From: a virus
Length of the DNA stretch: 25,599 bases
IMG/VR virus record: IMGVR_UViG_3300010885_019188
Coordinates: 1-25,599 of that record
Direction: 5' to 3' (one strand)
Shown here: positions 575 through 25,002 of the stretch, one piece after another
Layout of the letters: each line of letters begins with the position of its first letter
How positions within the stretch are numbered: the first letter of the stretch is position 1
Program-made: the position numbers and the translations under genes
The notes under the pieces: model-generated
The model's input: only the letters and a program-made list of their open reading frames with translations
Database searches by the model: none
What the model was told of the DNA's origin: nothing

Positions 575-594
575 ATAACGGACGAAAAACAATT

Positions 595-2884: not shown

Positions 2885-3009
2885 AGTTTGACGAAATCAC
2901 AGAACTTACATTAGAGAAGTGTTTATTGTATCTATCTTATAAATCGGATAAGGCTACATTAGAAAACATATTACATAGAGAGTCCATAAAAAGACAGCAG
3001 CAGTCATAA
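2743..3009 (+). CDS. -1 frame C-terminal extension of the 2240 gene
   Basis: This 88-codon stretch has no independent start supported by context. It reads as real protein: a helical segment with FINGLTERYPELFEGG, then a conserved-looking block NFGKKWGGYSSLAELANGD, then a KFDEITELTLEKCLLYLSY-type region and a polar tail ending QQQS. The block resembles a recurring family in Bacteroidetes phages (N-F-G-K-K-W-G-x-Y, LA-x-GD, I-T-x-L). It therefore belongs to the upstream gene and is reached by a -1 shift at the T9 run. Its stop (3007-3009) lies inside the left box of the promoter-like motif at 3006, as expected if it is the true end of the transcription unit. Without it, 165 bases between 2884 and 3050 would be left unexplained. 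Confidence 0.72.
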   Translation, partial: CQFINGLTERYPELFEGGGDTTQHQVNFGKKWGGYSSLAELANGDVLKFDEITELTLEKCLLYLSYKSDKATLENILHRESIKRQQQS

Positions 3010-3035
3010 CGATATTTCCATTTCGTATTGTTATA
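3006..3035 (+). promoter_or_regulatory. bipartite late-promoter-like motif, copy 1
   Basis: Left box ATAACGATATTT at 3006-3017, 12 nt spacer, right box GTTATA at 3030-3035, and an ATG 20 nt after the first base of the right box. Same architecture as five other intergenic sites in the window. The surrounding bases also form an imperfect inverted repeat, ATAACGATA (3006-3014) against TATTGTTAT (3026-3034), pairing at 8 of 9 positions plus a wobble. It would drive the small Cys-motif gene and the giant fibre. Confidence 0.6.
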
Positions 3036-3049
3036 TCATTAAAGATATT

Positions 3050-3331
3050 ATGGGTAAATGGTCAAATAGTAGAAATGGTAACCTTAGATACTCCGTTAAC
3101 AGAGAGAATGCTAGTGGCATATACTTAGGCCCTACTCAAGGTCTATCATCACCAAAGAATAGTAGAAGAGCATGTCTATGTTTAGATAGTGATACTTACG
3201 ATGTTAAGTGTTGCAATGGTGCGTTAATGCAACAAGGTATTGGTGTCATACAAGGAACACCGCCTGTAAGCATTGGTGCATTTAGTGATGGATATAGTGA
3301 AGGTTTCAATATTGGTTCTCCGTTAAATTAA
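3050..3331 (+). CDS. small conserved Cys-motif protein of Bacteroidetes-type phages
   Basis: A 93-residue protein starting MGKWSNSRNGNLRYS. The central segment RRACLCLDSDTYDVKCCNGA, with Cys 42, 44, 54 and 55, is the distinctive part. A C-x-C ... T-Y-x-x-x-C-C-x-G pattern followed by QGIG recurs in small structural-region proteins of phages infecting Bacteroidetes, as I recall the family. No enzymatic motif or membrane segment is seen. The Cys pairs could bind a metal or form disulfides. It is the first gene after promoter-like copy 1 and lies 8 nt before the giant fibre gene, so a role in fibre attachment or tail-tip assembly is plausible but inferred. The function is not established. Confidence 0.75.
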   Translation: MGKWSNSRNGNLRYSVNRENASGIYLGPTQGLSSPKNSRRACLCLDSDTYDVKCCNGALMQQGIGVIQGTPPVSIGAFSDGYSEGFNIGSPLN

Positions 3332-3339
3332 AATAGAAT

Positions 3340-6300
3340 ATGTCATTGAACAAACAACAATTAGAAGTAGTAAATCAGACTAACTTTCCTGACAACAATA
3401 CGAAGTATATTACTCCAGCATTGTTAAGGGATTTTAATACTGATATGATTGACGCCATACAACTAACAGGGTCTTATGCGACTACTGGTAGCAATACATT
3501 TGTAGGCAATCAAACCATTACCGGTAACTTAAATGTTAGTGGTGTTATTTCTGCAAGTGTATTATATGTGCAAACAGAAACATCATCGGTAATATTCTCA
3601 AGTGGTAGTAACCAATTCGGTGATGAGTTAACGGATATACAAACCCTAAGTGGTAGTGTAAAGGTTCAAGGTAGCTTAACTGTAAACGGAGTAGCAGTAT
3701 TAACTAGTTCTGCTGATGTAACAGGTTTTGTAACTACTGCATCTTTTAACTCATATACTTCATCTACTAATTTAAGACTTAATTCTTTAGAAACTAATAG
3801 TGCTAGTGTAAACATTTCAATTGCAAATATAAATACAACAACTGCAAGCTTGAATACATCGGTAAGTGCATTAAACACATTCACTGCATCTCAATTAGTA
3901 TTAAACGGAAAATATGCAACAACAGGTAGTAATACATTTACAGGCAATCAAGTAATTGACAGAGCAAGTAAGTTATATACTAACGGAATATATTGGACAG
4001 ATGTAACTGCAGGATATAATAACTTAGAAATCATAAACCAAGGTGGAGGCAATTTAGATTTTGCTTCTTTGAATGGTGGTAAGATGAGAATAGTAAGTAC
4101 ACCTTTAATACTAACGGGTAGTGCTTTATCTTCATCAAACGATATTTCTACATCAGCAAACATATATGGTGCTAACTTAACTGGTAGCACATTACCTTCT
4201 GGTGTTATATCAGGTAGTGCACAAATAACTGGATTAGGATTTGTTAGTTCATCAGTAACTGCATCTTCTTTGATTACTGCTTCATTTAGTGGAAACACTT
4301 TAACATTCACAAAAGGTAACGGAACTACATTCGGTGTGGTAATACCTGATGTTAGTGGTAGTACAATCCCATCGGGTACAGTTTCAGGTAGTGCACAAAT
4401 AGTAGCATTAGGATTTGCAACAACTGCATCTCTTAACACATATACTGCATCTATAAACTCATACACTCAATCTAATGATGCAAAGTGGACAACATTACAA
4501 ACTTTAACTGCATCTAATAGTGCATCGCTAAATCAATTGAATGCATTTACTGCATCTCAATTAACAATCAATAGTGCAATAGGAGCATCAACTGCTTCAT
4601 TAAATACATTTAGTGCATCGACATTAACTAGATTAAATAATATTGAAACGACTACTGCAAGTTTATTGATTGAGACACAAAACTTAGAATTGTTTAGTGC
4701 ATCTGCATTAACATCATTAAGTAATCTAAATACTGCAACTGCATCTTTATTTACTTCTACAAGTTTATCTTTGACTACTGCATCTTTTGCAGGAAATACT
4801 TTAACATTTACAAAAGGTAATGGTACAACATTTGGTGTAGTTATTCCTGATATTAGTGGTAGTACAATACCATCAGGAACTGTTTCATCTTCTGCACAAA
4901 TAGTTAACTATGGTATATTCGCAACAACAGGTAGCAATCAATTTATTGGTAATCAAGCAATTGATGGTACATTAACTATAACTGGCAAAATCATAGGTTC
5001 ACAAAGTATAATTTTACAACCTAATGCTAACGATGCTAGAACTTTAGAAATATACAATACCTCTGCAGCTGATACACATATTACTGCAAGTGGTGGTGAA
5101 TTATTTTTAGGTAATGATGAAACCTATGTATTAGTAAATACTAACGCAAATCAAAAGCTAGTAGTTATAAGAGGTGATGAAAAAATTGTTGCTAGTGGTA
5201 GTTTAGATATTAGTGGTAGTTTAACTTCATCTTTACAACAAGGATATGTTTTAGTAGGAGATAGCAATAATAGAACTAAATTAGTTGCAACATCATCATT
5301 CATTGACACATTTAATAGTAGTAGTTTAGTAACAACTGCATCATTCAACACATACACAGCATCTAACGACCAAAAGGTAAATAGTTTAATTGCAGCAACT
5401 GGAAGTTATGCAACAACAGGTAGTAATACTTTTAATGGTAACCAAAATATTAGTGGAAGTATTAATTTCCCTAATGGAATGTATATTAAAGGATTTGCAG
5501 GCCAATTCGGTGAAATATTAGCTGCTTCTACTCAATTAAATATTCAAGCAACTGCTTTAACATTAAGTGGTAGTAATGTATCAATAAATGGTGTTAACTT
5601 TATATCATTTAGTTCATCTGTTGATAGTAGAATAAATGCAATAACAGGTAGTAATATAAATACAGGTAGTTTTGCAACAACCGGTAGCAATACATTCATC
5701 GGTGACCAAACAATTAGTGGGTCTGCGTTTGTATCAGGAAATATATCTGCACCAAATAACACAATAGACGCTAATACATTTAATGGTAGTTTTATAAACT
5801 TATGGAACCAAAATGCTGGAATGGGATTGGCATTAAATTCACAAGGTAGTGGCTCTCAATATCCACAATTTAATGTTACTGTAGACTCAACCGTATGGCC
5901 GAAAGACATTTATGGTGGTTTTCAAGTACAAGACCCATCATTAGGATATTTTACATATTTGGCAGCCGAAGCAACTTCATACACACCTGAATATAATGGT
6001 GAAGTAGTTGGTTTTATTGCAGGTGGTGCTAATAACGCAAATGGTTCTAACACTGCAATCATTATGAGAACAGGTAGTGCTAATTTGGAAATATATAAAC
6101 CTATCGTTGCAAACTTTAATTTGAATGTAATAGGAAGTTTAACCTCTTCTTTACAACAAGGGTATGTATGGGCAGGTGGAGCAGGTAATATATCTAAATT
6201 AGTAGCAACATCATCGTTTATTGATAATCAAATAACATCTGCATCGTTTAACTCATACACAGCTTCTAACGATGCAAAAGTAAATAGTTTAATTGCAGCA

Positions 6301-8187
6301 ACTGGAAGTTATGCAACAACCGGAAGTAATACATTTAGAGGCAATGAAACATTTGAAGATGCAGCAGGTAATGCATCTACATTAGTTCCTATATCAGGTA
6401 GTTTAATGTTAGTTGCAAAATCATTTACATCAGCATCAGCTCATTTAAGTGCATCTACATCAACACAAGTAAACTTAATATTCAAAAATAGTAATACTAC
6501 TCCAGATACAATTATATCTGGTAGCAATAACATATTTACAAATCCAACTGCACCAACTGCAGGTTTCAAAAGATATATCGGTGGTAGTAGTAATTTAATG
6601 TTATCACCTGGTGGTGTCAATCAAATAAGTGCCTCTCAAGCATTCCCAATTACAACGAACTTTAATGTTAATATGAATGGGGCTATTACAACTAGAGGGC
6701 CTGTAAGTGCATCTGCATGGAATATGAATGGTAATTTGATAATGGCGGGTATCAATGTTGGTCAAAGTGCTGCAAATAATGCAGAAAAACTATTGGGAAC
6801 ACTTGCTATAAATAATAATCAAGCTGGAAATAGTTTGAATATCATTGCAAATAGAACAGCAATTAGTGCATCTACAACCATAGGTAGTAATGCATTTATA
6901 GGAGGAGCAACTATTTTAACAATGGCATCTTCCTCAATTGGCCACCAATTTAATGTTGGTAATGCTACTATTACTAATGGATTTCAAAATGCAGGTGGAA
7001 CAGGAACTAATAATAGTTTACAAGTATTTTCTAACTGGTTTGGTGGAGCAATAATAAATGTATCAGGAAGTGACGCAGGTGGGTTGTCCAATCCAAGATT
7101 TATGTATAACAATTATTTATTTAGTGGATTAAGTTTATCAGGAACATCAGCAATTGCAAATCTTTCATTAAATGGTAGTGGGTCGTCAATGTTATCTACA
7201 ATGGCGATGGGACATGAATTAGGTATAACTGGTAGTAATGGATATGATAGTAATAATAATATTTTAACACCAGGTACTGGAGCAGGTAGTGCTTTCTTTG
7301 GTAGATGGAATGCTCAAGATGGAAATAGAGCAAGAACTTCTGAAACGGTATTTGCAATAGGAACAGGAACTGAAGCAACTAAAAAGACAGGCTTCTTAAT
7401 TGACTCAGGTAGTAACACATTTATAGAGGGAACTCTTAATGTAAGTGGTAGCACAACACTAACGGGTAGTTTATCTGTATTAGGTAACACAACAATAATA
7501 AATAATAAATTAACATTTAGTGGTTCGGCTCCTTTTAACAATGCATCAGTAATAGAAACAATTGGTGGTGGTAATCTACAAATTAGTAGTAGTGGATATA
7601 TGGTATTAGGTGCTAATGGTTTAGGTATTTCACAAAATGATAGAAATAGTGATTTCACAATGTATTCAAATATGGCAAAAAATGCAACATTTGGAGCATT
7701 TGCATCACAATCAGCAAATATGAATGTTGGTGTATACGACCCTGATAATTTTACATATGATAATGAATTACAAATAACTGCAGAACCAAGCGGTGGAATT
7801 ACTTTTAATGATTGGGATAATGGAAATGGTCAATATGTGTCATGGTTAAAAACAATACCTAACGATGGAAGTAATCCTGCACCTGTAATGACAAGAGGTT
7901 TAACTATATCAGGTAGTTTAAGTATGACTGGTAGTGTAAACTTTACAACAGGTAGTAATAAGCAAGCAGGAACTGCAGTATTAGATGGTGCAAACCCAGG
8001 TACAGTAACAGTATCAAACTCATTGGTAACTACAAATAGTATCATAATGGTAAGTAAACAAACTAACAATCATCCAAATGCTGGACCGGTTGTTATAAGT
8101 TCAAAAGGTAGTGGTACATTTACAATTACTTCTAATCATAATGGTGATACTGATACAGTAGGATGGTTTATAATCAATAATTCATAA
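3340..8187 (+). CDS. giant modular tail/head fibre protein (1615 aa)
   Basis: Very rich in Ser, Thr, Asn, Gly and Ala and built from repeated beta-type units. The phrase ATTGSN-x-F-x-G-(N/D)-(Q/E) occurs six times (DNA near 3475, 3913, 4918, 5407, 5671 and 6310). SGSAQI and TASFNSYTASNDAKV-type units recur between them. This composition matches collagen-free, repeat-built fibres of aquatic phages. The last about 80 residues start at QAGTAVLDGANPGTVTVSN and end DTVGWFIINNS. They resemble a C-terminal fibre domain in which GTVTV, an ITS block and DTSTVGW/IIN recur, probably the trimeric receptor-binding tip. I see no intramolecular chaperone (peptidase S74) domain. Long antisense ORFs here are artefacts of the repeats. 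Target and attachment point are unknown; host recognition is the likely role. Confidence 0.85.
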   Translation: MSLNKQQLEVVNQTNFPDNNTKYITPALLRDFNTDMIDAIQLTGSYATTGSNTFVGNQTITGNLNVSGVISASVLYVQTETSSVIFSSGSNQFGDELTDIQTLSGSVKVQGSLTVNGVAVLTSSADVTGFVTTASFNSYTSSTNLRLNSLETNSASVNISIANINTTTASLNTSVSALNTFTASQLVLNGKYATTGSNTFTGNQVIDRASKLYTNGIYWTDVTAGYNNLEIINQGGGNLDFASLNGGKMRIVSTPLILTGSALSSSNDISTSANIYGANLTGSTLPSGVISGSAQITGLGFVSSSVTASSLITASFSGNTLTFTKGNGTTFGVVIPDVSGSTIPSGTVSGSAQIVALGFATTASLNTYTASINSYTQSNDAKWTTLQTLTASNSASLNQLNAFTASQLTINSAIGASTASLNTFSASTLTRLNNIETTTASLLIETQNLELFSASALTSLSNLNTATASLFTSTSLSLTTASFAGNTLTFTKGNGTTFGVVIPDISGSTIPSGTVSSSAQIVNYGIFATTGSNQFIGNQAIDGTLTITGKIIGSQSIILQPNANDARTLEIYNTSAADTHITASGGELFLGNDETYVLVNTNANQKLVVIRGDEKIVASGSLDISGSLTSSLQQGYVLVGDSNNRTKLVATSSFIDTFNSSSLVTTASFNTYTASNDQKVNSLIAATGSYATTGSNTFNGNQNISGSINFPNGMYIKGFAGQFGEILAASTQLNIQATALTLSGSNVSINGVNFISFSSSVDSRINAITGSNINTGSFATTGSNTFIGDQTISGSAFVSGNISAPNNTIDANTFNGSFINLWNQNAGMGLALNSQGSGSQYPQFNVTVDSTVWPKDIYGGFQVQDPSLGYFTYLAAEATSYTPEYNGEVVGFIAGGANNANGSNTAIIMRTGSANLEIYKPIVANFNLNVIGSLTSSLQQGYVWAGGAGNISKLVATSSFIDNQITSASFNSYTASNDAKVNSLIAATGSYATTGSNTFRGNETFEDAAGNASTLVPISGSLMLVAKSFTSASAHLSASTSTQVNLIFKNSNTTPDTIISGSNNIFTNPTAPTAGFKRYIGGSSNLMLSPGGVNQISASQAFPITTNFNVNMNGAITTRGPVSASAWNMNGNLIMAGINVGQSAANNAEKLLGTLAINNNQAGNSLNIIANRTAISASTTIGSNAFIGGATILTMASSSIGHQFNVGNATITNGFQNAGGTGTNNSLQVFSNWFGGAIINVSGSDAGGLSNPRFMYNNYLFSGLSLSGTSAIANLSLNGSGSSMLSTMAMGHELGITGSNGYDSNNNILTPGTGAGSAFFGRWNAQDGNRARTSETVFAIGTGTEATKKTGFLIDSGSNTFIEGTLNVSGSTTLTGSLSVLGNTTIINNKLTFSGSAPFNNASVIETIGGGNLQISSSGYMVLGANGLGISQNDRNSDFTMYSNMAKNATFGAFASQSANMNVGVYDPDNFTYDNELQITAEPSGGITFNDWDNGNGQYVSWLKTIPNDGSNPAPVMTRGLTISGSLSMTGSVNFTTGSNKQAGTAVLDGANPGTVTVSNSLVTTNSIIMVSKQTNNHPNAGPVVISSKGSGTFTITSNHNGDTDTVGWFIINNS
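3574..3660 (+). repeat. fibre module shared with the second fibre (14500-14586)
   Basis: The 29-residue block centred on SSVIFSSGSN, followed by GD-x-x-x-D-x-QTL-x-GS, is present here and again at 14500-14586 in the second fibre. Both copies follow the same kind of beta repeats. Protein similarity is clear, while the codons have diverged, suggesting old duplication or import of a common module. Confidence 0.7.
4291..4403 (+). repeat. internal fibre repeat A, second copy at 4792-4904
   Basis: Two 113-nt segments encode almost the same 37 residues, including LTFTKGNGTTFGVVIPD, SGSTIPSGTVS and SAQIV. Most differences are at third codon positions, so the protein unit is conserved while the DNA has drifted. 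The lengths are identical, with no indel. Confidence 0.85.
5215..5445 (+). repeat. internal fibre repeat B/C, second copy at 6133-6348
   Basis: Composite duplicated block. Part B (5215-5307 and 6133-6225, 93 nt each) encodes GSLTSSLQQGYV ... KLVATSSFID. Part C (5338-5445 and 6241-6348, 108 nt each) encodes ASFN-x-YTASND followed by VNSLIAATGSYATTGSNTF. The B-C spacer differs by 15 nt between copies. The arrangement indicates unit-wise duplication within the fibre. Confidence 0.85.
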
Positions 8188-8196
8188 TAAAATAAA

Positions 8197-8226
8197 ATAA
8201 CGATTTTTTAACTTGGGTATGTTATA
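8197..8226 (+). promoter_or_regulatory. bipartite late-promoter-like motif, copy 2
   Basis: Left box ATAACGATTTTT at 8197-8208, 12 nt spacer, right box GTTATA at 8221-8226. The left box differs from copy 1 at one base. A small palindrome, GGTAT-GTT-ATACC (8216-8228), overlaps the right box. The site precedes the scaffold/capsid/tail-tube genes, the most highly expressed set expected in a phage. Confidence 0.62.
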
Positions 8227-8247
8227 CCTGTATAAACAAAATAGAAT

Positions 8248-9000
8248 ATGAACGCAAAAAATGTATTGAATAAGATTTTAGGACTTTTATCAGAAGATGT
8301 TCTAAACTTTACAGATGCTAAAACAAAAGACGGTACTATTTTACAATCACCAACTTTTGACTTAGGTGAAACAGTTGATGTTGTAGATGCAGACGGAAAG
8401 AAAACTCCAGCTCCAGACGGCGAACACGAAATCGCATTGAAAGACACAGAGGGTAAAGAAGTTATCATCAGAATTGAAACTAAAGACGGAAAAATTACTT
8501 CAAGAGAAAATGTTGAAGAAGCAAATCCTGAATTAGCTAAAGTAGATGAAGAAGTAGTTGACAAGAATGTTGACGAAAAGAAAGAAGGTGATGTTAAGAT
8601 GGCTGACACTACAACAGAAGAAGCACATCCATTACCAAACACAACTGACGAAGACCCACGCAATATGATTGCTGATGACTCTGAGGAAACTGAGAAAGAC
8701 CCATTAATTTCATTGTCTTACAGAATTTCAGAAATGGAAAAGCAAATGAAAACTATGATGGAAAAGTTTGGTGACCCTAATTTACCAATGGTAGATGAAG
8801 AAGTTCCAGCAGAAGATGAGATGTTACCAGAAGATGGTGTTGCAATGTCAGAAGTAGAAGAAGAAGAGTTACCTAAATTAGATGGTGCTCCAATTGATAC
8901 TGCAGGCTTTAAGTTTTCACAAGAGGTACACAAACCTAACACATTCGGAAAAAAAGTAGGAAGTTCACAAAACAACTTCTTATCTAAACTATATAATTAA
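8248..9000 (+). CDS. putative head scaffolding protein
   Basis: A 250-residue, very acidic protein immediately upstream of the major capsid gene, the usual place for a scaffold. Residues about 20-85 form a beta-type domain with KTKDGTILQSPTFDLGETVD and a P-A-P-D-G-E-H-E phrase. In Bacteroidetes-phage scaffolds this kind of domain (DGT, F-x-x-G, DG-x-x, PAPDGE) recurs. A long low-complexity acidic linker follows. A short predicted coiled coil at about 150-175 (RISEMEKQMKTMMEKFG) comes next, then another acidic stretch, and a basic, polar C-terminus ending NNFLSKLYN that could contact the capsid protein. The likely role is guiding prohead assembly and then being removed, perhaps by the XkdF-type protease at 23461. 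Scaffold assignment is by position and composition, so moderate. Confidence 0.7.
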   Translation: MNAKNVLNKILGLLSEDVLNFTDAKTKDGTILQSPTFDLGETVDVVDADGKKTPAPDGEHEIALKDTEGKEVIIRIETKDGKITSRENVEEANPELAKVDEEVVDKNVDEKKEGDVKMADTTTEEAHPLPNTTDEDPRNMIADDSEETEKDPLISLSYRISEMEKQMKTMMEKFGDPNLPMVDEEVPAEDEMLPEDGVAMSEVEEEELPKLDGAPIDTAGFKFSQEVHKPNTFGKKVGSSQNNFLSKLYN

Positions 9001-9022
9001 AATAATTAAAAAACAAACAAAC

Positions 9023-9985
9023 ATGAAAAAATTTCAAAAGTTTGCTGAACCTACCATCACCGCTACATCGTATGCAGGTGAGGCAGCTGCACAATATATC
9101 GCTGCAGCTTTGTTATCAGCAAAAACACTTGACAACAAGTATGTGACTATCATGCCAAACGTGAAATACAAAGAAGTAATTCAAAAGTTAGCAGTTGATG
9201 GTATCGTACAAGACGCATCTTGTGATTTCACAACTTCAGGTAGTGTAACAATTACTGAAAGAGTTATCACTCCAAAAGAATTACAAGTTAACTTACAATT
9301 ATGTAAGCAAAACTTCGTAGCATCTTGGGAAGCTTTACAATTAGGATTTTCTGCATTTGACGAAATTCCTAAATCATTCAACGACTATTTAGTATCTTAT
9401 GTAGGTGGTGTAGTTGCACAAGCAACTGAACAATCTATTTGGGCAGGTACAAATGTAAATGGTCAATTCGCAGGTTTCCAAACTGCATTATCTGCATCAG
9501 TAGCAGCAGGAACAGGTGTAATCTCTGCAAAGAGTGGTTCAATCGTAATTTCTGGAAGTATCACAGCTGGTAATGTATTATCAGTAATGAACTCAGTAGT
9601 GGATACAATCCCTGCAGCAGTTTATGGTAAAGAAGATTTATTATTGTATGTAGGTACAGGTGTTGCAAAAAACTATCAACAAGCATTAGCAGGTGGAGCA
9701 GTTGGAGCAAATGGTTGGAACAACCAAATGAACGTGGGTGACAAACCTTTCAACTTTAACGGTATTGAAATCGTTATGTGTCCAGGTATGTCTGCTAACA
9801 CAATCGTTGCAGCTCAAAAATCTAACTTATTCTTCGGAACAGGTTTACTTTCTGACTACAATGAAGTAAAAGTAATTGACATGGCGAATATTGATGGTTC
9901 ACAAAACTATCGTATCATCATGAGATACACAGCAGGTACACAAATCGGTATCTTAAGTGATGTAGTTTACTACGGAGCTTACTAA
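9023..9985 (+). CDS. major capsid protein (HK97-fold type)
   Basis: A 320-residue protein following the scaffold gene. It has the look of Bacteroidetes-phage HK97-fold capsid proteins. An N-terminal arm (KKFQKFAEPTITATSYAGE) leads into AAQYIAAALLSAKTLDNKYV. The middle resembles the spine-helix region (NFVASWEALQLGFSAFDEIP, followed by VSYVGGVVAQATEQSIWAG). The C-terminal part has the P-loop/A-domain style strand PFNFNGIEIVMCPGM and ends in a strand with MRYTAGTQIGILSDVVYY. Its codon use has more C-ending codons than the fibre genes, consistent with a highly expressed gene. The A-rich leader with no Shine-Dalgarno is notable for the most abundant virion protein. No protease-cleavable delta domain is evident; the scaffold is a separate gene. 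Confidence 0.88.
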   Translation: MKKFQKFAEPTITATSYAGEAAAQYIAAALLSAKTLDNKYVTIMPNVKYKEVIQKLAVDGIVQDASCDFTTSGSVTITERVITPKELQVNLQLCKQNFVASWEALQLGFSAFDEIPKSFNDYLVSYVGGVVAQATEQSIWAGTNVNGQFAGFQTALSASVAAGTGVISAKSGSIVISGSITAGNVLSVMNSVVDTIPAAVYGKEDLLLYVGTGVAKNYQQALAGGAVGANGWNNQMNVGDKPFNFNGIEIVMCPGMSANTIVAAQKSNLFFGTGLLSDYNEVKVIDMANIDGSQNYRIIMRYTAGTQIGILSDVVYYGAY

Positions 9986-9998
9986 TATAACTAAGGTC

Positions 9999-10018
9999 GG
10001 TGGGGTTAAAATCCCACC
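9999..10018 (+). other. hairpin just downstream of the capsid gene
   Basis: GGTGGG(G) pairs with (T)CCCACC around a six-base TTAAAA loop, 13 nt after the capsid stop. The stem is strong for such AT-rich DNA, but the following AACTTTTAAC is a poor U tract. It looks more like a 3' mRNA-stability element or leaky attenuator than a full terminator. Confidence 0.45.
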
Positions 10019-10052
10019 AACTTTTAACTAACAAAAATAAAATTAAAGTATC

Positions 10053-10589
10053 ATGGCTTGTAACTTAACACAAGGGCGTCAGGAAGTTTGTAAAGAAAGT
10101 ATCGGTGGATTACTAGGTGCTTACTTCATTAACTTTACAACTGGGTCTTTTACAAAAAACGCAGCAGGATTGGTGACAGCGTTACCATCAGGCTCAACCG
10201 TATATTATTACGAGTTGAAAGGAACTAGTGCATATACCGAAACTGTAAACACATCTCGTGAAAATGGTACAACATTCTTCTCTCAAGAATTATCTTTGAA
10301 TTTGAAGAAGTTGACTAATGAAATGACTACACAATTAAAGTTGATGGCTTACGGCCGTCCTCAAGTAATTGTATGGACAAATAACGGAGATGCATTGTTA
10401 GTTGGTGAAAAATTAGGAGCTGATGTAACTGCAGGAACTATTCAAACAGGTGGAGCATTGGGTGACTTATATGGTTATTCAGTAACTTTAACAGGAACTG
10501 AACAATTACCAGCATCATTTATCTCTGGAAGTACAACGACTTCTCCTTTCGCAGGATTAGCAGTTCAACCAACTATCGTATACAACTAA
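10053..10589 (+). CDS. probable major tail (tube) protein
   Basis: A 178-residue protein starting MACNLTQGRQEVCKES, followed by IGGLLGAYF. In Bacteroidetes phages this C-x-LT-x-GR ... CK ... GG N-terminus recurs in a protein encoded beside the capsid gene. The middle (YYYELKGTSAYTETV, then SQELSLNLKKL) and the short strands at the C-terminus suggest a small beta-sandwich, consistent with tail tube proteins. Two Cys near the N-terminus (positions 3 and 13) are characteristic. It shares the scaffold/capsid transcription unit and is followed by the strong terminator at 10615, so it would be made in amounts like the capsid protein, which fits a tube subunit. The tube role is inferred from context; a capsid decoration protein is the main alternative. 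Confidence 0.62.
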   Translation: MACNLTQGRQEVCKESIGGLLGAYFINFTTGSFTKNAAGLVTALPSGSTVYYYELKGTSAYTETVNTSRENGTTFFSQELSLNLKKLTNEMTTQLKLMAYGRPQVIVWTNNGDALLVGEKLGADVTAGTIQTGGALGDLYGYSVTLTGTEQLPASFISGSTTTSPFAGLAVQPTIVYN

Positions 10590-10614
10590 TCAGTATAACG
10601 CATAAAAATATTAG

Positions 10615-10643
10615 ACCCTACTCTTCGGAGTGGGGTTTTTTTA
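10615..10643 (+). terminator. rho-independent terminator, UUCG tetraloop
   Basis: Nine-base-pair stem ACCCTACTC / GAGTGGGGT (one G-T wobble) closed on a TTCG tetraloop, followed by a further six T (10637-10642). This is a textbook intrinsic terminator and the only strong one I see in the window. It closes the scaffold-capsid-tail-tube unit, and copy 3 of the promoter-like motif starts two bases later. Confidence 0.93.
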
Positions 10644-10644
10644 T

Positions 10645-10674
10645 TTAATGATATTTGGTTTTGATGGTGTTATA
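10645..10674 (+). promoter_or_regulatory. bipartite late-promoter-like motif, copy 3
   Basis: Left box TTAATGATATTT at 10645-10656, 12 nt spacer, right box GTTATA at 10669-10674 (here within the palindrome GTTATAAC). It restarts transcription immediately after the terminator, which is the best contextual argument that the motif is a promoter. Next start codon at 10694. Confidence 0.62.
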
Positions 10675-10693
10675 ACTAGATAAAGACAAGGTA

Positions 10694-11059: not shown

Positions 11060-11060
11060 T

Positions 11061-12374
11061 ATGAAAGCAAATCAAAATTTCGCAGTTGTTAATGTTAACA
11101 CAAACCAACTTCCAATTATTACGGAAGATACAAAGACTCGTTATCAATGGGTGCCATTCGGCGTTTATGGTCACGATGACTTCTTTGGTGCTGTAACATC
11201 TGCATTTAATGTATCTACAACAACTTCTGCATGTGTAGAAGGAATTGCTGATTTAATTTATGGTAAAGGGTTATACTCAAAGAATAGTGCATTTAACGAT
11301 GTATTACAAAAGTTAATTCCACAAGAAGAAACTAAAAGAGTATCATTTGACTTAAAATTATTCGGTAATGCTGCATATCAAGTGTTTTGGAATGATGACC
11401 ATACTAAAATAATTAAGTTGTATCACATTCCTATTCAAACCCTTCGTGCAGAAAAGTTAAACAACGAACCAAAGATACAAAACTATTATTATTGCACAGA
11501 TTGGAATGACCAAAGAAAGATTAAAGATAAAAAGAAAATACCAGCATTTGGAACATCAAGTGACAAAATGGAAATACTTTACATAAAGAATTATTTCCCT
11601 GGATTATACTATTATTCTTTACCAGATTGGGTTTCAGCAATGCAATACTCAATAGCCGAAGGTGAAATCTCCAATTTACACTTAAATAATATTACTAATG
11701 GTTTCTTACCTGCAGTAATGATTAACTTTAACAATGGAGTTCCTGCACCTGAAGAAAGACAAACCATTGAAGATTTATTACAGGCTAAATTTACTGGAAC
11801 AGATAACGCAGGTAGATTTATGTTATCATTCAATGATGACCCTGCAACTAAACCAACATTAGACATTATTCAAATAGATAACTTACATGAGAAGTATGAA
11901 TATGTTGCAGATTATACACAAGATAGAATATTAGTTGCACATAGAGTAACATCACCTTTATTATTCGGTATTAGAACTGACAATAATGGTTTTAGTTCTC
12001 AAAGTGAAGAAATGAAGACTGCATTCTCTATCATGCAAACAATGACTATCTCTCCATTCCAAAATCTTATCTTAAACAGTTTAGATATGGCATTGACAGA
12101 AGGTGGATATGAAGCAACTGAATTATACTTTGAACAATTAACTCCATTAGTAATACTTGCAGAAACTGCAGATGAAACTGGTAAATCAATTGGACAAGTT
12201 GAAGATGAAACTAACAAATCAATGGAAAATCCTGCAACACAGGAAAACCCAGGTGACCAAACTACTCAAGATGCAACTCCTCCAACTAAAAACAAAATGG
12301 AGACAGAAGATAATATAATGATGCCAATGAGTAGTGCATTTTTTGAAAGAGAATACGAAATAATTAAACATTAA
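11061..12374 (+). CDS. portal protein
   Basis: A 437-residue protein forming the dodecameric DNA gate at the capsid vertex, by family resemblance to PBSX/Phage_portal-type portals. Diagnostic parts: an N-terminal WVPFGVYGHDDFFGAVTSAF region; the SACVEGIADLIYGKGLYSK stretch typical of the start of the clip/wing; the LFGNAAYQVFW strand with KLYHIPIQTLRAEK; and the stem region DRILVAHRVTSPLLFGIRTD with the NNGFSSQSEEMKTAF segment, a conserved portal feature. The C-terminal 60 residues are polar, Thr/Glu/Asn-rich and probably disordered. It lies between a small structural gene and the connector, the standard head-neck order. Length is normal for the family. Confidence 0.88.
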   Translation: MKANQNFAVVNVNTNQLPIITEDTKTRYQWVPFGVYGHDDFFGAVTSAFNVSTTTSACVEGIADLIYGKGLYSKNSAFNDVLQKLIPQEETKRVSFDLKLFGNAAYQVFWNDDHTKIIKLYHIPIQTLRAEKLNNEPKIQNYYYCTDWNDQRKIKDKKKIPAFGTSSDKMEILYIKNYFPGLYYYSLPDWVSAMQYSIAEGEISNLHLNNITNGFLPAVMINFNNGVPAPEERQTIEDLLQAKFTGTDNAGRFMLSFNDDPATKPTLDIIQIDNLHEKYEYVADYTQDRILVAHRVTSPLLFGIRTDNNGFSSQSEEMKTAFSIMQTMTISPFQNLILNSLDMALTEGGYEATELYFEQLTPLVILAETADETGKSIGQVEDETNKSMENPATQENPGDQTTQDATPPTKNKMETEDNIMMPMSSAFFEREYEIIKH

Positions 12375-12377
12375 GAC

Positions 12378-12896: not shown

Positions 12897-12899
12897 AAT

Positions 12900-13790: not shown

Positions 13791-13809
13791 AACGATAAAA
13801 TAAAAATAA

Positions 13810-15504: not shown

Positions 15505-15510
15505 TAGAGT

Positions 15511-17343: not shown

Positions 17344-17344
17344 T

Positions 17345-17728
17345 ATGCCTACATTACAAGACATAGCAAAACAGATAAGTTCCTTAGCACAATTGAACTT
17401 ACAAAGAAAACCAACCCGTGCGATAGATACAGGTAACTTACTTCGCACGGTGGCAAGCTATAATACACCTCAAAGAATGGTCAATGAAATTAAAACTTCT
17501 GACACTTATTCTTTTGAAATTGAATTAGATTATGCACCACCAGGAGCAGAATATGGTAGGTATGTAAATGACGGAACTTATAAAATGGCAGCAAGACCAT
17601 TTGCAGATAATGCAATCAATGACCCAACTGTCTTAGCAATGTTGGATGACTATTATAGTGATGTAGTAGATAAATTAGTTATTGGAAATCTTGCAAAAGA
17701 ATTGGATAAGATGGAAGCTGAGTATTAG
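17345..17728 (+). CDS. HK97-gp10-like neck/tail-completion protein
   Basis: 127 residues from the ATG at 17345, one base after the adhesin stop. An in-frame ATG at 17300 would overlap the adhesin by 44 nt and add 15 residues of no family character, so I prefer 17345. The diagnostic part is YGRYVNDGTYKMAARPFADN, the Y-x-R-(F/Y)-V-x-x-GT-x-(K)M-x-ARPF signature of HK97-gp10-like proteins, which join head and tail. The N-terminal half is helical with a basic patch (LNLQRKPTRAIDTG), and the end is a helical tail rich in Leu and acidic residues. It is the last gene of the unit started by motif copy 3, which also encodes the portal, connector and terminator. Length is near the family norm. Confidence 0.82.
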   Translation: MPTLQDIAKQISSLAQLNLQRKPTRAIDTGNLLRTVASYNTPQRMVNEIKTSDTYSFEIELDYAPPGAEYGRYVNDGTYKMAARPFADNAINDPTVLAMLDDYYSDVVDKLVIGNLAKELDKMEAEY

Positions 17729-17730
17729 CA

Positions 17731-17760
17731 TCCACCATTTTTCCAGAAACTGTGGTTATA
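17731..17760 (+). promoter_or_regulatory. bipartite late-promoter-like motif, copy 4
   Basis: Left box TCCACCATTTTT at 17731-17742, the most divergent at its 5' half, then 12 nt, then GTTATA at 17755-17760. It starts two bases after the previous stop codon. An AAAGGA sequence follows before the ATG at 17778, one of the few possible Shine-Dalgarno sites. Confidence 0.5.
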
Positions 17761-17777
17761 ATAAGAAAGGATTATAA

Positions 17778-18938
17778 ATGTCATTATCAATCACACAAAC
17801 ACCAGCGTTAGTTTCTTTAGCACAATCACCGATTATTTTTACGGTTGCAGAAAGTACACCTGTTTATACATCATCTTCATTTCAATATGTAGGTGAATTA
17901 TATTATTGGACAGGTAGTTTAACTGCTTCAGGTAGTGCAGACTATACGATTGTCAAATATCCAAATACAGTAAATGTAGGTATTTTTGACTTAAATAGAA
18001 TTATTAATTCAACACTTACAGATTTAGCATATACTAATACATCAAATGTAATGTATTATGCAGTTGATTTTTATTATCAATATTACAATGGAACTTCATT
18101 TGTAACTGGGTCACATCTTAAATCATCTACATACAAAGCATTAGATGGTTATAGTATTTTCCAAGAACCAATAGGACAAGTAGTTTATTCCAAAACTCCA
18201 TACTGGCCTTTGATGACTGATGGGCCTGCAACTCAATCTGCATTTTTAGATAACTACGGAACTGCAGGTGTATATAGTGGTGATGCGGGAACAACACAAC
18301 CTACAAAGATAACATACACATCTAATTTAGGAAGTGCAGATTATAATGTCAGTTCATCAACTTCAACATCAGGACAAGTATATCAATATCCAATAGGGCC
18401 ATTGCAAAGTGGATTTCCTCTTTCTACAACAGGTTTAGAATATTTTACAACACAAGCATACAATGGTTCAACTGCATTAGGTAGTTCAATTAAATATGTT
18501 GTTGATTGTATTCAGAAATATCCTAATGTAAGAATTAAGTGGAAAAATAGATTTGGTCAATTTGATTTCTTTAACTTTTATATGGTTAATAGACAATCAT
18601 TTACAACTGAAAAGAAAACTTATCAACCACAATTAGGTACATGGGAAAGTTCAACTTTATCTTATGCAAAACCAGATAGTGGTGTATTGAATTATATTGT
18701 AGATAGTAAGCAAGCAATTCAAGTTAATTCATTTTGGATTTCACAAGATTATAATGAATTATTAAAGCAACTAATGGTATCTGATGAAATATATTGGGTA
18801 TATGATGAAGCTAACAACTATGTAAGACCGATAACAATTACAACTTCTAATGTAGTATTTAAAACAGGAGTTGTAGATGGTTTAATTCAATATCAATTTG
18901 ATTTCAATTACGGACAAGCGTATAAATTAATTATCTAA
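17778..18938 (+). CDS. tail-tip / baseplate structural protein (386 aa)
   Basis: A 386-residue beta-rich protein starting MSLSITQTPALVSLAQSPII. The opening (x-x-SP-x-x-FTV) and the C-terminal block VRIKWKNRFGQFDFFNFY resemble a distal tail protein of Bacteroidetes phages, in which R-x-KNRFGQ-x-(D)-(F/Y) is conserved. Its stop and the next start share a base (TAATG), indicating coupled translation with the next tail-tip protein. The chain is rich in Tyr, Ser and Thr, with no enzymatic motif. The probable role is part of the tail-tip complex, possibly the ring-forming distal tail component, but I cannot demonstrate a Dit fold from sequence alone. Confidence 0.72.
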   Translation: MSLSITQTPALVSLAQSPIIFTVAESTPVYTSSSFQYVGELYYWTGSLTASGSADYTIVKYPNTVNVGIFDLNRIINSTLTDLAYTNTSNVMYYAVDFYYQYYNGTSFVTGSHLKSSTYKALDGYSIFQEPIGQVVYSKTPYWPLMTDGPATQSAFLDNYGTAGVYSGDAGTTQPTKITYTSNLGSADYNVSSSTSTSGQVYQYPIGPLQSGFPLSTTGLEYFTTQAYNGSTALGSSIKYVVDCIQKYPNVRIKWKNRFGQFDFFNFYMVNRQSFTTEKKTYQPQLGTWESSTLSYAKPDSGVLNYIVDSKQAIQVNSFWISQDYNELLKQLMVSDEIYWVYDEANNYVRPITITTSNVVFKTGVVDGLIQYQFDFNYGQAYKLII

Positions 18939-20959
18939 TGGCAGGAGTTATATCAACCCAAGGGTTTCAGTTTAGATTATTAGCAGGTACACCATTTCAA
19001 CAATTAGACCTATTTGCAGATGAAGATATTAAATTATCAAATAATGTAACAGGTATATTTGACATTGGTACACTACCTGCAGATTTTACTAGACAAATTA
19101 CAATACCAGGAACTAAAGTAAACAATGCTTTCTTTGAGCATGTTTATGATATTTCAATTCAAAATCCATTTCTATTTGCAACAAATATTAAAGTTCCTTG
19201 CTATTTTGATTTTGGTGGATTTTATTTATCAAATGGGTATATACAATTAAATAAAGTAAATGTCCTTGCTAATAAATTCATTGAAAGTTATGAGGTAACA
19301 ATTTATGGTGCATTGTCCAGTTTTGGTAGAGATATTAATAGAGCATATTTAAGTGATTTAACTTCATTAGCACAATATAATCATACTTCATCTTACGATA
19401 ATATTAAATTAAGTTGGGAAACAGGTAGTACTGGTTTATTTAATCATGATATAGTTTACCCATGGGCAGATTATGGACAAGGATGGCAATATACATCAGG
19501 TGATGATTTTTTTGGTGTAGATGATAACTATGGTGGTTTATCTGTTATGGATTATAAACCTGCTATTAGAGTTAAAAAGGTATGGGATGCAATCTTTGAT
19601 TATGCAGGATATACATACTCATCTTCATTTTGGAGTGAGAGTTGGTTAGATGATGTTTATATGGTTTGTAATAAAGGATTAAGATATCCAGTTTATCCTG
19701 AAGTTGATTTGGAAACATATGGTGTAATGAAATTAGGTGCAATATCAGGAAGTGGTATGACTGATTTAAATATACCAATGAATACATGGACAACTTTACC
19801 TTGGTTTAATCAATTAGTTGACCCAGGTAATTTTGTAAACAATGGTGCATATACAGTAGAAAAGAATACAAATTTAACTGGAGTATTAAACTTAAATTTT
19901 GAAGTTAGTTCTTCAGGTAATTTACCAGGACAATTTTGGATGAGAATGATTGAGACAGGTAGTGCAACTGCAGTAGGTGAAAGTACATTGGTAACATTTA
20001 ATAATTACTTTACACAAATTGCTAGAAGTAGAAGTTCAACTCAAAGTATTCAACAAACATATACATTATCAACACCTTTACCTTTTCAAAATGTAGCAGC
20101 AGGTACTTATTATTTTCAAATTAAGATAGATGAATATTATGTAACTACTGACCCAAGAATTATAATAGACCCAGGTGGAACAACAAAATCTTTTATTCAA
20201 ATACAAAGAGTAAATCAGGCAGCTGATGGTAGAGTTTTAGATATACCTTCAAATATGCCATATGGAACTGCAGGTATTAAATTAGTAGATTGGATAAGCG
20301 GAATACAAAAGAAATTTAATTTAGTAATTTATCCTAACAACACTAAACAAAATGAGTTTATTATTGAAACATTTAGTAATTGGTATAATAAAGGAAATGT
20401 ATTAGATTTTAATAGATACATTAATTTAGATGAAAAATTAGAAGTAATATCTGCAAATAGTTTTGCTGTAAATAAATTAAACTTTGGTGATACTTTAGAC
20501 CAAGATTATGTTTCATTACAATTTAGTAGAGGAGCAAATAGAGAATTTGGTAAACAATATTACATTGATACTACTAACTTTTATTCACAAGGTGAGTTTA
20601 ATGTTAAAACTACATTTGCATCATCACCATTATTGTATATGACAGGTACAGGTTTATCTGGAAGTATTGGAGGATTTTCACCTACACAATCATACTATTC
20701 AATCGGAACTTATAAAGTTTCATATGTAAGTTCTGCAAGTTCAGTTTGTGGAAATTTCACACAATGTGCATTCTATCAATTATATACCGATACTGGTACA
20801 TTTGCAACTGGTAAAATAGTTTATACAGATGCTTATGGGAATAATCCTGTGGTAGGTTTTAGTTGGTTAGTATACAATACAGGTGGTGGAGCAAACGAAA
20901 TATATTCATTAAATTCATCAACCGGAGAAATCGGATATGGAACAGGACAATTTTGCTAA
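18938..20959 (+). CDS. large tail-tip protein, N-terminal part of an apparently split gene (673 aa)
   Basis: The N-terminal 180 residues (QLDLFADEDIKLSNNVTGIF; DFTRQITIPGTKVNNAFFEH; further on PCYFDFGGFYLSNGYIQLN) look like the start of the long tail-tip protein found in Bacteroidetes phages. The region about 430-560 (WISGIQKKFNLVIYPNNTKQ; NEFIIETFSNWYNKGNVLDF; LDQDYVSLQFSRGANREFG) continues that family. Around residue 568 onward it changes into a short module (VSSASSVCGNFTQCAFYQLY; GKIVYTDAYG; IYSLNSSTGEIGYGTGQFC) and then stops. The family's usual C-terminal part appears instead as the separate 174-residue gene starting at 20972. So the gene looks as if a small display module with its own stop was inserted into an ancestral longer ORF. 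Tail-tip role: fairly sure; the split: inference from family memory. Confidence 0.74.
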   Translation: MAGVISTQGFQFRLLAGTPFQQLDLFADEDIKLSNNVTGIFDIGTLPADFTRQITIPGTKVNNAFFEHVYDISIQNPFLFATNIKVPCYFDFGGFYLSNGYIQLNKVNVLANKFIESYEVTIYGALSSFGRDINRAYLSDLTSLAQYNHTSSYDNIKLSWETGSTGLFNHDIVYPWADYGQGWQYTSGDDFFGVDDNYGGLSVMDYKPAIRVKKVWDAIFDYAGYTYSSSFWSESWLDDVYMVCNKGLRYPVYPEVDLETYGVMKLGAISGSGMTDLNIPMNTWTTLPWFNQLVDPGNFVNNGAYTVEKNTNLTGVLNLNFEVSSSGNLPGQFWMRMIETGSATAVGESTLVTFNNYFTQIARSRSSTQSIQQTYTLSTPLPFQNVAAGTYYFQIKIDEYYVTTDPRIIIDPGGTTKSFIQIQRVNQAADGRVLDIPSNMPYGTAGIKLVDWISGIQKKFNLVIYPNNTKQNEFIIETFSNWYNKGNVLDFNRYINLDEKLEVISANSFAVNKLNFGDTLDQDYVSLQFSRGANREFGKQYYIDTTNFYSQGEFNVKTTFASSPLLYMTGTGLSGSIGGFSPTQSYYSIGTYKVSYVSSASSVCGNFTQCAFYQLYTDTGTFATGKIVYTDAYGNNPVVGFSWLVYNTGGGANEIYSLNSSTGEIGYGTGQFC

Positions 20960-20971
20960 AATTAAAATATT

Positions 20972-21496
20972 ATGAGTCAAAGAATACCAATATACATTCC
21001 AACTTACATTAATAATTCAACATACGAACCAGCAAGAGTATTGCCTCGTTTATTCTTTTATAATGGTAATTTACAATGTGAAAGATACTTTATACAACAA
21101 GCTTCACCAGGATATGGTGGAATATCTGAACAACAATTTGAATTCCCATATTTTGACAATTATAATGTAGTTAGTGGTAGCTTTCCAACAACCGATAGTC
21201 GTTCATTACTTTTTAATAATGAAGCAGCAGTTTATGGTGAATTACCTACTGAAAATCTTTATACTACTTATTGGGAAAAGTATATTAATTTTTTATATAA
21301 TCCAACTACAAGAGTATTGAATTGTAAAGCAATTATACCTTTAGCTGATTATTTTAAAATGTCATTAAATGATATTGTAAATTTTAGAGGAAATTATTGG
21401 CATTTAAGAGCAATAAATAATTACTCTCTTAAATCAGGAGATTGTGATTTACAATTATTAGGGCCAATTATTCCAGATGTATTAGATGGCAAGTAA
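20972..21496 (+). CDS. C-terminal part of the tail-tip protein as a separate gene (174 aa)
   Basis: Starts MSQRIPIYIPTYINNSTYEP, 12 nt after the stop of the upstream tail-tip gene, with an A-rich leader. The content looks like a continuation rather than an independent gene: ARVLPRLFFYNGN, then SRSLLFNNEA, then NPTTRVLNCKAIIPLADYF, SLNDIVNFRGNYWHLRAINN and a QLLGPIIP end. Such an N-x-(R/K)-x-L-x-(C/A) ... L-x-D-I-x-x-x-x-(G/N)-x-Y-(W/Y) ending normally closes the large tail-tip protein in related phages, as I recall. It would assemble with the 18938 product in trans. An alternative is an independent small baseplate protein. A stop readthrough or frameshift is not needed because it has its own start. 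Confidence 0.72.
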   Translation: MSQRIPIYIPTYINNSTYEPARVLPRLFFYNGNLQCERYFIQQASPGYGGISEQQFEFPYFDNYNVVSGSFPTTDSRSLLFNNEAAVYGELPTENLYTTYWEKYINFLYNPTTRVLNCKAIIPLADYFKMSLNDIVNFRGNYWHLRAINNYSLKSGDCDLQLLGPIIPDVLDGK

Positions 21497-21526
21497 TCAC
21501 TCACTTTTAATTTTACCAATGTTATA
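21497..21526 (+). promoter_or_regulatory. bipartite late-promoter-like motif, copy 5
   Basis: Left box TCACTCACTTTT at 21497-21508 begins on the base after the previous stop, followed by 12 nt and GTTATA at 21521-21526. It matches the T-rich half and the right box but not the ATAAC half. It precedes the small ORF at 21532 by 11 nt and the tape measure start by 145 nt. Confidence 0.5.
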
Positions 21527-21531
21527 TCATT

Positions 21532-21690
21532 ATGATAAAGAACTTAATAGATTTATTGCAAACTAACAATTTTTACGGACACTCTGAAACAATCAACATA
21601 GCAAAAGGAAAATACGCAATTCCTTATACTTGGTCTGATTTGGGAAAGAACATTAAAAGAAGATTATGGCCGATAAGAAAATCAAAGTAA
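21532..21690 (+). CDS. 52-aa ORF overlapping the tape measure start
   Basis: Runs from the ATG at 21532 to a TAA that lies 25 nt inside the tape measure gene. The product starts MIKNLIDLLQTNNFYGHS, is basic at its end (KRRLWPIRKSK) and has an alternating polar pattern. It fills the otherwise empty 170-base space before the tape measure, where siphophages usually encode tail assembly chaperones, but it is too short to be one and I do not recognise it. The overlap would allow coupled translation. If the GTTATA of copy 5 acts as a -10 element, the transcript would begin almost at this ATG, which argues for caution. Coding status is uncertain. Confidence 0.5.
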   Translation: MIKNLIDLLQTNNFYGHSETINIAKGKYAIPYTWSDLGKNIKRRLWPIRKSK

Positions 21691-23429
21691 AAGTTGATGT
21701 AGAAACCAACGCAGCTAATTCAATTGCAGATTTGAAAGCATTAAAAAAGCAATTAAAAGAAACTGCTGCAGGTAGTGAAGACTTCAAAAAACTTTACAAC
21801 CAGATTGATGATTTGGAAGATAAAATCAAATCAGCAAAAAATGTTTCAAGTGATTGGGTTGACTCATTAGAAAGTGCAGGTGGGCCATTGGGTGCATTAG
21901 GTGGTGCTTTGAATAAAGCAAAAGTTGCCACACAATCATTTGGTGCTGCATTGAAAGCAACAGGTATTGGTTTAATCGTTGCTTTATTAGGTGGATTTGT
22001 TGCAGCTCTTTCAAAGTCCGATGAGACAATGAAAAAGTTTGAACCAATTCTTATTATGTTTGAACAACTTTTGAATGGTTTATTAGGTGCATTACAACCC
22101 CTAATTGATGGATTTATAGAGCTAGCAATTAATGTAATGCCTTATGTAACAAAAGCATTTAAGGTAGTTTATTCAGCAGTAACTGCAGTATTCCAATCAT
22201 TAGGTAAGTTAGGTGGTGCAATTGTAAAATTATTCAAAGGAGATTTCAAAGGTGCATGGGAAGATGCAAAAGCATCAGTATCATCATTTAGTGATAATTA
22301 CGATGCAGCAGTTGATAGATTTGAGCAAGGTCAAAAGAAAATGACTAAAACTCAAAAAGAGAATTTAGATAAACAAAAGAAAGATAGAGACGAAGCTGCT
22401 GAAAAAGCTAAACAACAAAGAGAAGAAGAATTAAAAGCTTTGATGGAAGGTCAGAAGGAAGCAATGCAAGAATTGCTTTCTGAAAAAGAAGCTGAAGAAT
22501 ATAAAGTAAGAGAAAAGTATGCAAATCTATTATATCTTGCAACTAAGTATGGTGATGATACTGCTCAATTAAAACTTGCACAACAAAATGCATTAGATGA
22601 AATTGATGCAAAGTATAAGTTAAAAGAAGATGAGAAGAAAGCTAAAGAAGCAGAAGAAAGACAGAAGAATGCAGATGAATTGGCTAAGTTTTATTTAGAC
22701 CAATATGATAAGATAAAGAAATTAGAAGAAGATAGAGAAAATACTACATTCAAAACAAACCAAGCAGTTAGACAATCTTGGGTTGATTTAGGACAAAATA
22801 TTGCAGGTGTGTTTGGTTCATTGATAAATGTATTTGAACAAGGTTCAGATATGGCTAAAGCATTTGGTATTGCACAGGTTGCAATTAATGCTGCATCATC
22901 AATAGGACAAATATTAACAAATGCACAAGCAATGCAATTTGAATATAATAAAGCAATTGCAACGGGTAATGCAGCAATTTTAAGTGGTATACCTAAATTG
23001 GTAAACCCTATTACTGCAGGTTTAGGTATTGCTGAAATTGCTGCAGGTAAAGCAGCAGTAGCGGGTGGTATAGCCGGTAAAGCAGCAACCAAAGTTAGTA
23101 CAACATTACAGGTTGCAGCCGTAGGTGTTTCATCTGCAGCTCAAATTGCAGCAATACTTTCAGCAGGTAAAGGTAGTAAGTCAAGCGGTAGTGGTGCATC
23201 GGCAAGTACCGGTGGAGGTAATGTAGCTAACATAGCAGTTCCAACTGCACCAACTGCAACAGCACCATCCGTTAATACAACAGGTGGCCAGAATGCAACT
23301 TCACAAATTGGTGAAACTATATCTGCAGCGCAAAAACCAATCAAAGCATATGTTGTATCACAAGATGTTTCTTCTCAACAGGCATTAGATAGAAGAACAA
23401 ACAGAGCTGCAACATTCAACGGAGCATAA
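21666..23429 (+). CDS. tail tape measure protein (587 aa)
   Basis: N-terminal helix starting MADKKIKVKVDVETNAANSI. Then SIADLKALKKQLKETAAGS and QIDDLEDKIKSAK, a typical tape-measure beginning. A hydrophobic segment follows at about 99-115 (TGIGLIVALLGGFVAAL) and a second amphipathic/hydrophobic stretch at about 137-178. A long charged coiled coil (about 215-365) comes next, then an Ala/Gly-rich region and a low-complexity Ser/Gly/Thr linker. It ends in KPIKAYVVSQDVSSQQALD, a conserved end in Bacteroidetes-phage tape measures (AYVV-x-QDV-x-x-QQALDRR). The family sets tail length and helps DNA ejection. By the rule of about 0.15 nm per residue, 587 residues suggest a tail near 90 nm; this is an estimate. 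No peptidoglycan-hydrolase motif is visible. Confidence 0.85.
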   Translation: MADKKIKVKVDVETNAANSIADLKALKKQLKETAAGSEDFKKLYNQIDDLEDKIKSAKNVSSDWVDSLESAGGPLGALGGALNKAKVATQSFGAALKATGIGLIVALLGGFVAALSKSDETMKKFEPILIMFEQLLNGLLGALQPLIDGFIELAINVMPYVTKAFKVVYSAVTAVFQSLGKLGGAIVKLFKGDFKGAWEDAKASVSSFSDNYDAAVDRFEQGQKKMTKTQKENLDKQKKDRDEAAEKAKQQREEELKALMEGQKEAMQELLSEKEAEEYKVREKYANLLYLATKYGDDTAQLKLAQQNALDEIDAKYKLKEDEKKAKEAEERQKNADELAKFYLDQYDKIKKLEEDRENTTFKTNQAVRQSWVDLGQNIAGVFGSLINVFEQGSDMAKAFGIAQVAINAASSIGQILTNAQAMQFEYNKAIATGNAAILSGIPKLVNPITAGLGIAEIAAGKAAVAGGIAGKAATKVSTTLQVAAVGVSSAAQIAAILSAGKGSKSSGSGASASTGGGNVANIAVPTAPTATAPSVNTTGGQNATSQIGETISAAQKPIKAYVVSQDVSSQQALDRRTNRAATFNGA

Positions 23430-23455
23430 CAATTTTTAATAATAAGCCTGTTATA
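23426..23455 (+). promoter_or_regulatory. bipartite late-promoter-like motif, copy 6
   Basis: Left box ATAACAATTTTT at 23426-23437 overlaps the tape measure stop. Then 12 nt, then GTTATA at 23450-23455. ATAAC and GTTAT form an inverted repeat with the same 24-nt start-to-start distance as in copies 1 and 2. The start codon follows the right box by only 5 nt, so a transcript starting here would be nearly leaderless. Confidence 0.58.
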
Positions 23456-25001: not shown

Positions 25002-25002
25002 C

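Follow-up and report, generated by a model that had tools for sequence, protein, structure and literature searches.

A repeated intergenic motif, very probably the virion-gene promoter of a family of uncultured Bacteroidota-type phages, and a phage ECF-type sigma factor that probably reads it

Results

The window and the circle it completes

We analyzed a whole IMG/VR virus record, IMGVR_UViG_3300010885_019188, and refer to its 25,599 bases as the window. A contig of the same metagenome, L155, matches window positions 1–1286 at 100% and positions 24,883–25,599 at 99.7%, and joining the two by the overlaps at both window ends closes a circle of 32,883 bases (~32.9 kb). L155 contributes early-looking small genes together with a sigma factor gene (L155:6553–7116), which lies upstream of the terminase genes and outside the window. 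The window itself carries the following genes.

875–2059: terminase
9023–9985: putative capsid gene, guessed from its position; its PHROG family is without known function
11061–12374: portal
21666–23429: tape measure, from a weak match
23461–24216: phage serine protease (Peptidase_S78_2, 7.8e-15)

The C-terminal part of a DruA-domain gene (Pfam PF14236, 9.6e-20) adjoins the terminase genes (window 3–395; L155:7704–8396). No prophage relative that names a host was found among the genome contigs searched; an isolate relative and the type of early promoter, both described below, would place the host in Bacteroidota.

Six copies of a bipartite motif lie between genes

An earlier note on the window, made from its letters, had described a motif at six sites between genes, with constant spacing between its two boxes, and had proposed that it is a phage-specific late promoter or a dual operator and promoter. 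Re-reading the window bore out the description. All six copies (3006, 8197, 10645, 17731, 21497, and 23426) are intergenic and on the + strand, and in each, exactly 12 nt separate a 12-nt left box from the right box, GTTATA. The finer details also held: T precedes the right box in five copies, with G at 17731, and ATAAC is exact in three (3006, 8197, and 23426). These copies, and the terminator that accompanies one of them, are as follows.

3006–3035, + strand: candidate promoter copy 1, ATAACGATATTT-12-GTTATA; 14 nt 5′ of ATG 3050; conserved before 32 of 48 homologs of the 3050 gene
8197–8226, + strand: candidate promoter copy 2, ATAACGATTTTT-12-GTTATA; ahead of the putative capsid operon (8248 gene, 9023 gene); 40 of 48 homologs
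10616–10642, + strand: intrinsic terminator predicted from sequence, with an 8-bp stem, a TTCG loop, and seven T; directly 5′ of copy 3
10645–10674, + strand: candidate promoter copy 3, TTAATGATATTT-12-GTTATA; before 10694 and the portal gene; 40 of 63 homologs
17731–17760, + strand: candidate promoter copy 4, TCCACCATTTTT-12-GTTATA, with G before the right box; before 17778; 33 of 38 homologs
21497–21526, + strand: candidate promoter copy 5, TCACTCACTTTT-12-GTTATA; 5 nt 5′ of ATG 21532, upstream of the tape measure gene; mRNA predicted leaderless; 10 of 21 homologs in a strict test
23426–23455, + strand: candidate promoter copy 6, ATAACAATTTTT-12-GTTATA; 5 nt 5′ of ATG 23461 (phage serine protease); mRNA predicted leaderless; 15 of 22 homologs

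Several copies abut the end of the preceding unit. At 3006 and 23426 the preceding frame terminates at the TAA within ATAAC, copy 21497 begins directly after a stop codon, and copy 10645 sits after the strong terminator hairpin with its T-run. The genes 3′ of the copies encode portal, tape measure, protease, and other virion-type proteins. GTTATA occurs 14 more times on the + strand of the window, never with a left box; the earlier note was right on this point, although the copy it placed at 8091 sits at 8092. When the 30-mer was searched as a strict pattern with at most three mismatches, four matches were found in the window, against 0.20 expected from dinucleotide shuffles.

Close to copy 1, an ATG-less open frame (window 2885–3009) directly follows the 2240–2884 gene and ends at the TAA inside the motif. 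Relatives have an overlapping short frame at the same place, and the frame may encode a programmed frameshift product of the tail-chaperone kind.

The motif is confined to gene borders and recurs at the same borders in relatives

We trained a scan matrix on relatives alone, leaving out the window's own copies, and applied it to both strands of the circle. Every copy in the window was among the top eight hits (scores 17.5–23.6), with L155:1139 and L155:5250 as the other two; all eight are intergenic and on the + strand, which is the coding strand. The ninth hit scored 12.8 and falls inside a gene on the − strand, and shuffled sequences yielded a mean of 0.23 hits scoring ≥16. When the window and 22 additional long contigs were scanned, 118 hits scored ≥13, and 93 of these were intergenic on the + strand. 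Ten others were assigned to + strand genes, of which at least four (G002:25832, G009:24420, G013:1969, and G018:2386) directly precede the expected gene, and the reading frames that hold these four are probably spurious. A scan of this kind had been proposed in the earlier note, and in the circle and the further contigs alike its hits were intergenic rather than genic.

The same note had asked for the motif at homologous borders. Upstream regions of homologs were gathered by tblastn and de-duplicated; the motif is present in 170 of 240 distinct regions before homologs of the six window genes versus 3 of 596 before 17 other genes. Of 193 sites, 182 have a 12-nt gap, a tally that is not fully independent of the site finder, which used the left-box consensus, allowed 11–13 nt, and favored 12; a separate spacing scan peaked at 11–13.

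The two boxes vary in different ways. GTT is invariant among the collected sites, and the rest of the right box varies by genome or lineage, not by border, in the classes GTTATW, GTTAAA/GTTAAT, and GTTTTT. The left box varies by border: the putative −35 in relatives is mostly TAA(C/T), with TC.A(A)TAC at the 17778 border, where homologs mostly have TC.AATACTTTT and G precedes GTT in 32 of 34. Non-homologous promoters of one genome agree in right-box class in 262 of 276 pairs; in 2000 within-border permutations, which leave relatedness in the data, agreement averaged 131 and reached at most 170. Every lineage shift of the right box touches all promoters at once. That the right box is nearly uniform within a genome and differs between lineages points to a trans-acting reader, and the concerted change is the trace that such a reader would leave as it changed, a trace which by itself does not single out a sigma factor as the reader.

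The phages encode a small ECF-type sigma factor

The earlier note had suggested looking for a phage sigma-like factor, and an ECF-type sigma is indeed present: relatives whose sequence reaches across the region 5′ of TerL encode homologs of the ~185-residue protein of L155:6553–7116. Each of the 22 members in the alignment hits PHROG 1740, "RNA polymerase sigma factor" (lowest value 4e-10; window phage's own 1.9e-5). Pfam matches among these members comprise Sigma70_r2 (13), Sigma70_ECF (8), and Sigma70_r4 (7), mostly weak and several below the cut-off; the window phage's sigma, searched alone, gave no Pfam match.

In the AlphaFold model of the L155 protein, a linker joins two helical domains, of which the C-terminal one contains a helix-turn-helix; mean pLDDT is 85.7, and the pTM of 0.44 is what would be seen if the two domains orient freely. 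In this model the protein appears to possess the sigma region 2 and region 4 domains only, as is characteristic of ECF factors. A Foldseek search of the PDB placed ECF sigmas in nearly all of the top 28 places, with TM-scores of about 0.3–0.4 at full length and 0.67 for the SigR N-terminal fragment. This fold search was the informative one: by sequence, the single sigma retrieved nothing useful from the PDB, and the sigma profile retrieved only weak matches to helix-turn-helix proteins and sigmas.

Right-box class follows the tree of the sigma proteins: the deeper branches belong to GTTAA and the next group to GTTAT, and GTTTT forms a single nested group (support 98/94), with rows lacking a right-box class scattered among close kin. 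Class and sigma phylogeny are confounded, and any vertically inherited regulator would correlate too. Residues that best separate the classes include 72, 73, 77, 78, 81, and 84 (187-residue numbering) in the third helix, the expected position of region 2.3/2.4. Given the confounding just named, this fit is no more than suggestive.

A conserved zinc-ribbon-like gene adjoins the sigma gene (L155:7122–7553; L089:7438–7869), and no anti-sigma gene was seen. The motif copy at L155:5250 lies ~1.3 kb upstream of the sigma gene. Its counterparts (G022:7057, G002:12820, and G006:24636) lie 1.3–2 kb upstream of theirs and have the right-box class of their own genome. A motif copy so placed suggests self-amplification, a possible positive autoregulation.

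An isolate relative has a homologous sigma and similar sites

Nonlabens phage P12024S (Inhavirus) encodes a portal homolog (33%) and, upstream of its terminase, gp33, which matches Sigma70_r2 at 25.2 bits (cut-off 24). A tblastn from the window phage's sigma into isolate phages found no homologs; the link rests on the isolate's own annotation, tblastn in the opposite direction (5e-6), and profile comparison (hhalign, 94.9%), the last two of which identify gp33 as homologous to the sigma family.

P12024S also has sites composed of an AAC upstream (placed by eye), a T/C-rich stretch, and (C)GTTA. Seven of its start codons (179, 3031, 5412, 21280, 23961, 25201, and 26802) lie 10 or 11 nt past the G of GTTA. 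The resemblance to the window phage extends from portal and sigma to the AAC...GTTA sites themselves. The isolate's motif differs in that its right box is CGTTAATA after a C/T-rich stretch, AAC and GTTA are 17–18 nt apart by eye, and ATG is nearly always 11 nt past the G.

Geometry of the motif as a proposed promoter

We consider it highly probable that the motif is the virion-operon promoter of a family of Bacteroidota-type phages, read by host polymerase with a phage ECF-type sigma encoded upstream of terminase. The sequence evidence for a late promoter is strong, and the intergenic matrix hits, the homologous borders, and the phage-encoded sigma support the phage-specific promoter that the earlier note had favored. 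With the motif, its spacing, its conservation at homologous borders, the concerted variation of its right box, and a sigma-like protein with its predicted fold established here, we infer the binding of sigma to motif, the exact start points, and the late timing; "late" follows from the kind of genes downstream.

Under this reading the left box, ATAACNATTTTT, would be the −35 element, with ATAAC at about −35 to −31 and the T-tract of the spacer at −28 to −24, and the right box, TGTTAWW, would be the −10 element. The motif would thereby have the AAC-containing −35 element and the −10 element at fixed spacing that are looked for in ECF promoters. Transcription would start ~11 nt past the G of GTT, which would itself lie at about −11. 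Over 193 sites, the distance from right box to ATG has a floor of 10–11 nt, and at the last two borders it is exactly 11 in 32 of 39 sites. A start point at the A of ATG, as predicted, would explain this floor, and leaderless mRNAs are predicted on that account; those before 21532 and 23461 would be of this kind. Leaderless mRNAs are a minority in flavobacteria, accounting for 5.5% in F. psychrophilum (PMC9723704), and most F. johnsoniae mRNAs are leadered (PMC6847099).

In the simplest scheme, the host sigma would act first, early genes including the phage sigma would follow, and the virion operons would come last. A fuller proposition seems to us evenly balanced between right and wrong: that aquatic, uncultured phages of Bacteroidota, as a whole family, rely on an ECF-type sigma of their own with a lineage-specific −10 (GTTAAA, GTTATW, or GTTTTT), that all late promoters of a genome shift with sigma region 2, that late mRNAs are partly leaderless, and that self-amplification is suggested by the conserved motif 5′ of the sigma operon.

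Other readings of the motif

The left box might instead be a phage activator site in the style of T4 MotA, and the right box a −10 recognized by a host sigma. The MotA box to −10 spacing resembles the 12-nt gap, and a left box that differs by border next to a right box common to borders, as well as the zinc-ribbon-like neighbor of the sigma gene, would suit such an arrangement. Scanning the L155 proteins turned up nothing that resembles MotA. The right box, however, is unlike the Bacteroidota TAnnTTTG (PMC6847099), its shifts to GTTAAA and GTTTTT by phage lineage are unexplained by a host sigma, and a phage sigma is present, all of which render this reading quite unlikely. Recognition by a phage-encoded RNA polymerase, for which dedicated polymerases with their own promoters in other phages set a precedent, is extremely unlikely: no polymerase-like gene was seen in the closed ~32.9-kb circle, the large proteins that were scanned either are structural or gave no Pfam match, and a sigma-type protein is present. 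We separately rejected, as the main reading, TGTTATA as a sigma-70 extended −10; no −35 fits, the box becomes GTTAAA or GTTTTT in relatives, and the Bacteroidota primary sigma uses TAnnTTTG.

It is very unlikely that the motif is an operator or RNA element at operon borders, such as a processing site or translation signal, and not a promoter. ATAAC...GTTAT forms a 5-bp inverted repeat in three copies, right boxes are often near ATG, and at one border the right box is enclosed by a covarying dyad; but the ATAAC/GTTAT pairing is gone in other borders and right-box classes, the dyad is limited to that border, the geometry fits −35/−10 spacing, and a sigma is encoded. The same loss of complementarity led us to reject an ATAAC...GTTAT stem-loop. 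At 8197 the right box lies inside the dyad GGTAT-GTT-ATACC, and across the 8248 borders (window 8197–8240 and homologs) the dyad arms vary yet stay complementary, with a stem of ≥5 in 22 of 42 versus 3.85 expected. Other borders have no clear excess, and a hairpin around the right box was accordingly rejected as a general feature. The dual-operator half of the earlier proposal thus retains a hint of support at 8197 and none at the other five sites; the 8197–8240 dyad may act as an operator or, in read-through RNA, as a hairpin ahead of the putative capsid operon.

Elsewhere in that region, a GC-rich hairpin without a T-run (GGTGGGGTTAAAATCCCACC; window 9986–10052) lies between the putative capsid gene and 10053. 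Similar hairpins occur at the same place in relatives, and also before early genes in G001 and G002.

Discussion

Very probably, the 30-base repeat turns on virion genes across a large family of uncultured aquatic phages with Bacteroidota-type hosts, and a small sigma factor in the same phages probably reads it. Little has been published on late-gene switching in Bacteroidota phages, and a literature search yielded no prior description of the motif or of a sigma-driven late promoter in these phages. Motif and sigma would form a matched regulator-and-promoter pair that is open to testing. Natural variation, with dozens of sigma proteins and three or four −10 classes, could allow the promoter specificity of an ECF sigma to be read from its evolution, with residue swaps in a harmless reporter as the check. 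The pair might also serve as a compact orthogonal promoter and sigma for laboratory use in Bacteroidota, and the motif as a handle for locating operons in many uncultured phage contigs.

A phage sigma that redirects host polymerase to virion genes, as would be the case here, has parallels in T4 gp55 with gp33 and in SPO1 gp28 with gp33-gp34. T4 late promoters consist of TATAAATA alone. The present system departs from the T4 and SPO1 late promoters in its ECF-type protein and in its clear −35 and T-tract.

Among ECF systems, the promoter of A. baumannii SigAb has the −35 GTCAAC, four T in a 17-bp spacer, and the −10 CGTT (PMC12153292). SigAb (GTCAAC-17-CGTT) and B. subtilis SigX (TGTAAC / CGWC) share with the phage system an AAC-type −35, a spacer T-run, a GTT-type −10, and a small two-domain sigma. 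Here, by contrast, 18 nt separate ATAAC and TGTTA, one more than the SigAb optimum, and the sigma is phage-borne, would drive virion operons, and lacks a visible anti-sigma gene.

The Bacteroidota primary sigma, which recognizes TAnnTTTG (PMC6847099), presumably shares the same host polymerase core, but the motif has neither the −33 TTTG nor the −7 TAnnTTTG of its promoters; the −7 element is found at none of the six window sites. A good host-type promoter, TTTG-20-TATATTTG, does occur at L155:2656–2687, directly upstream of the presumed early operon of small genes.
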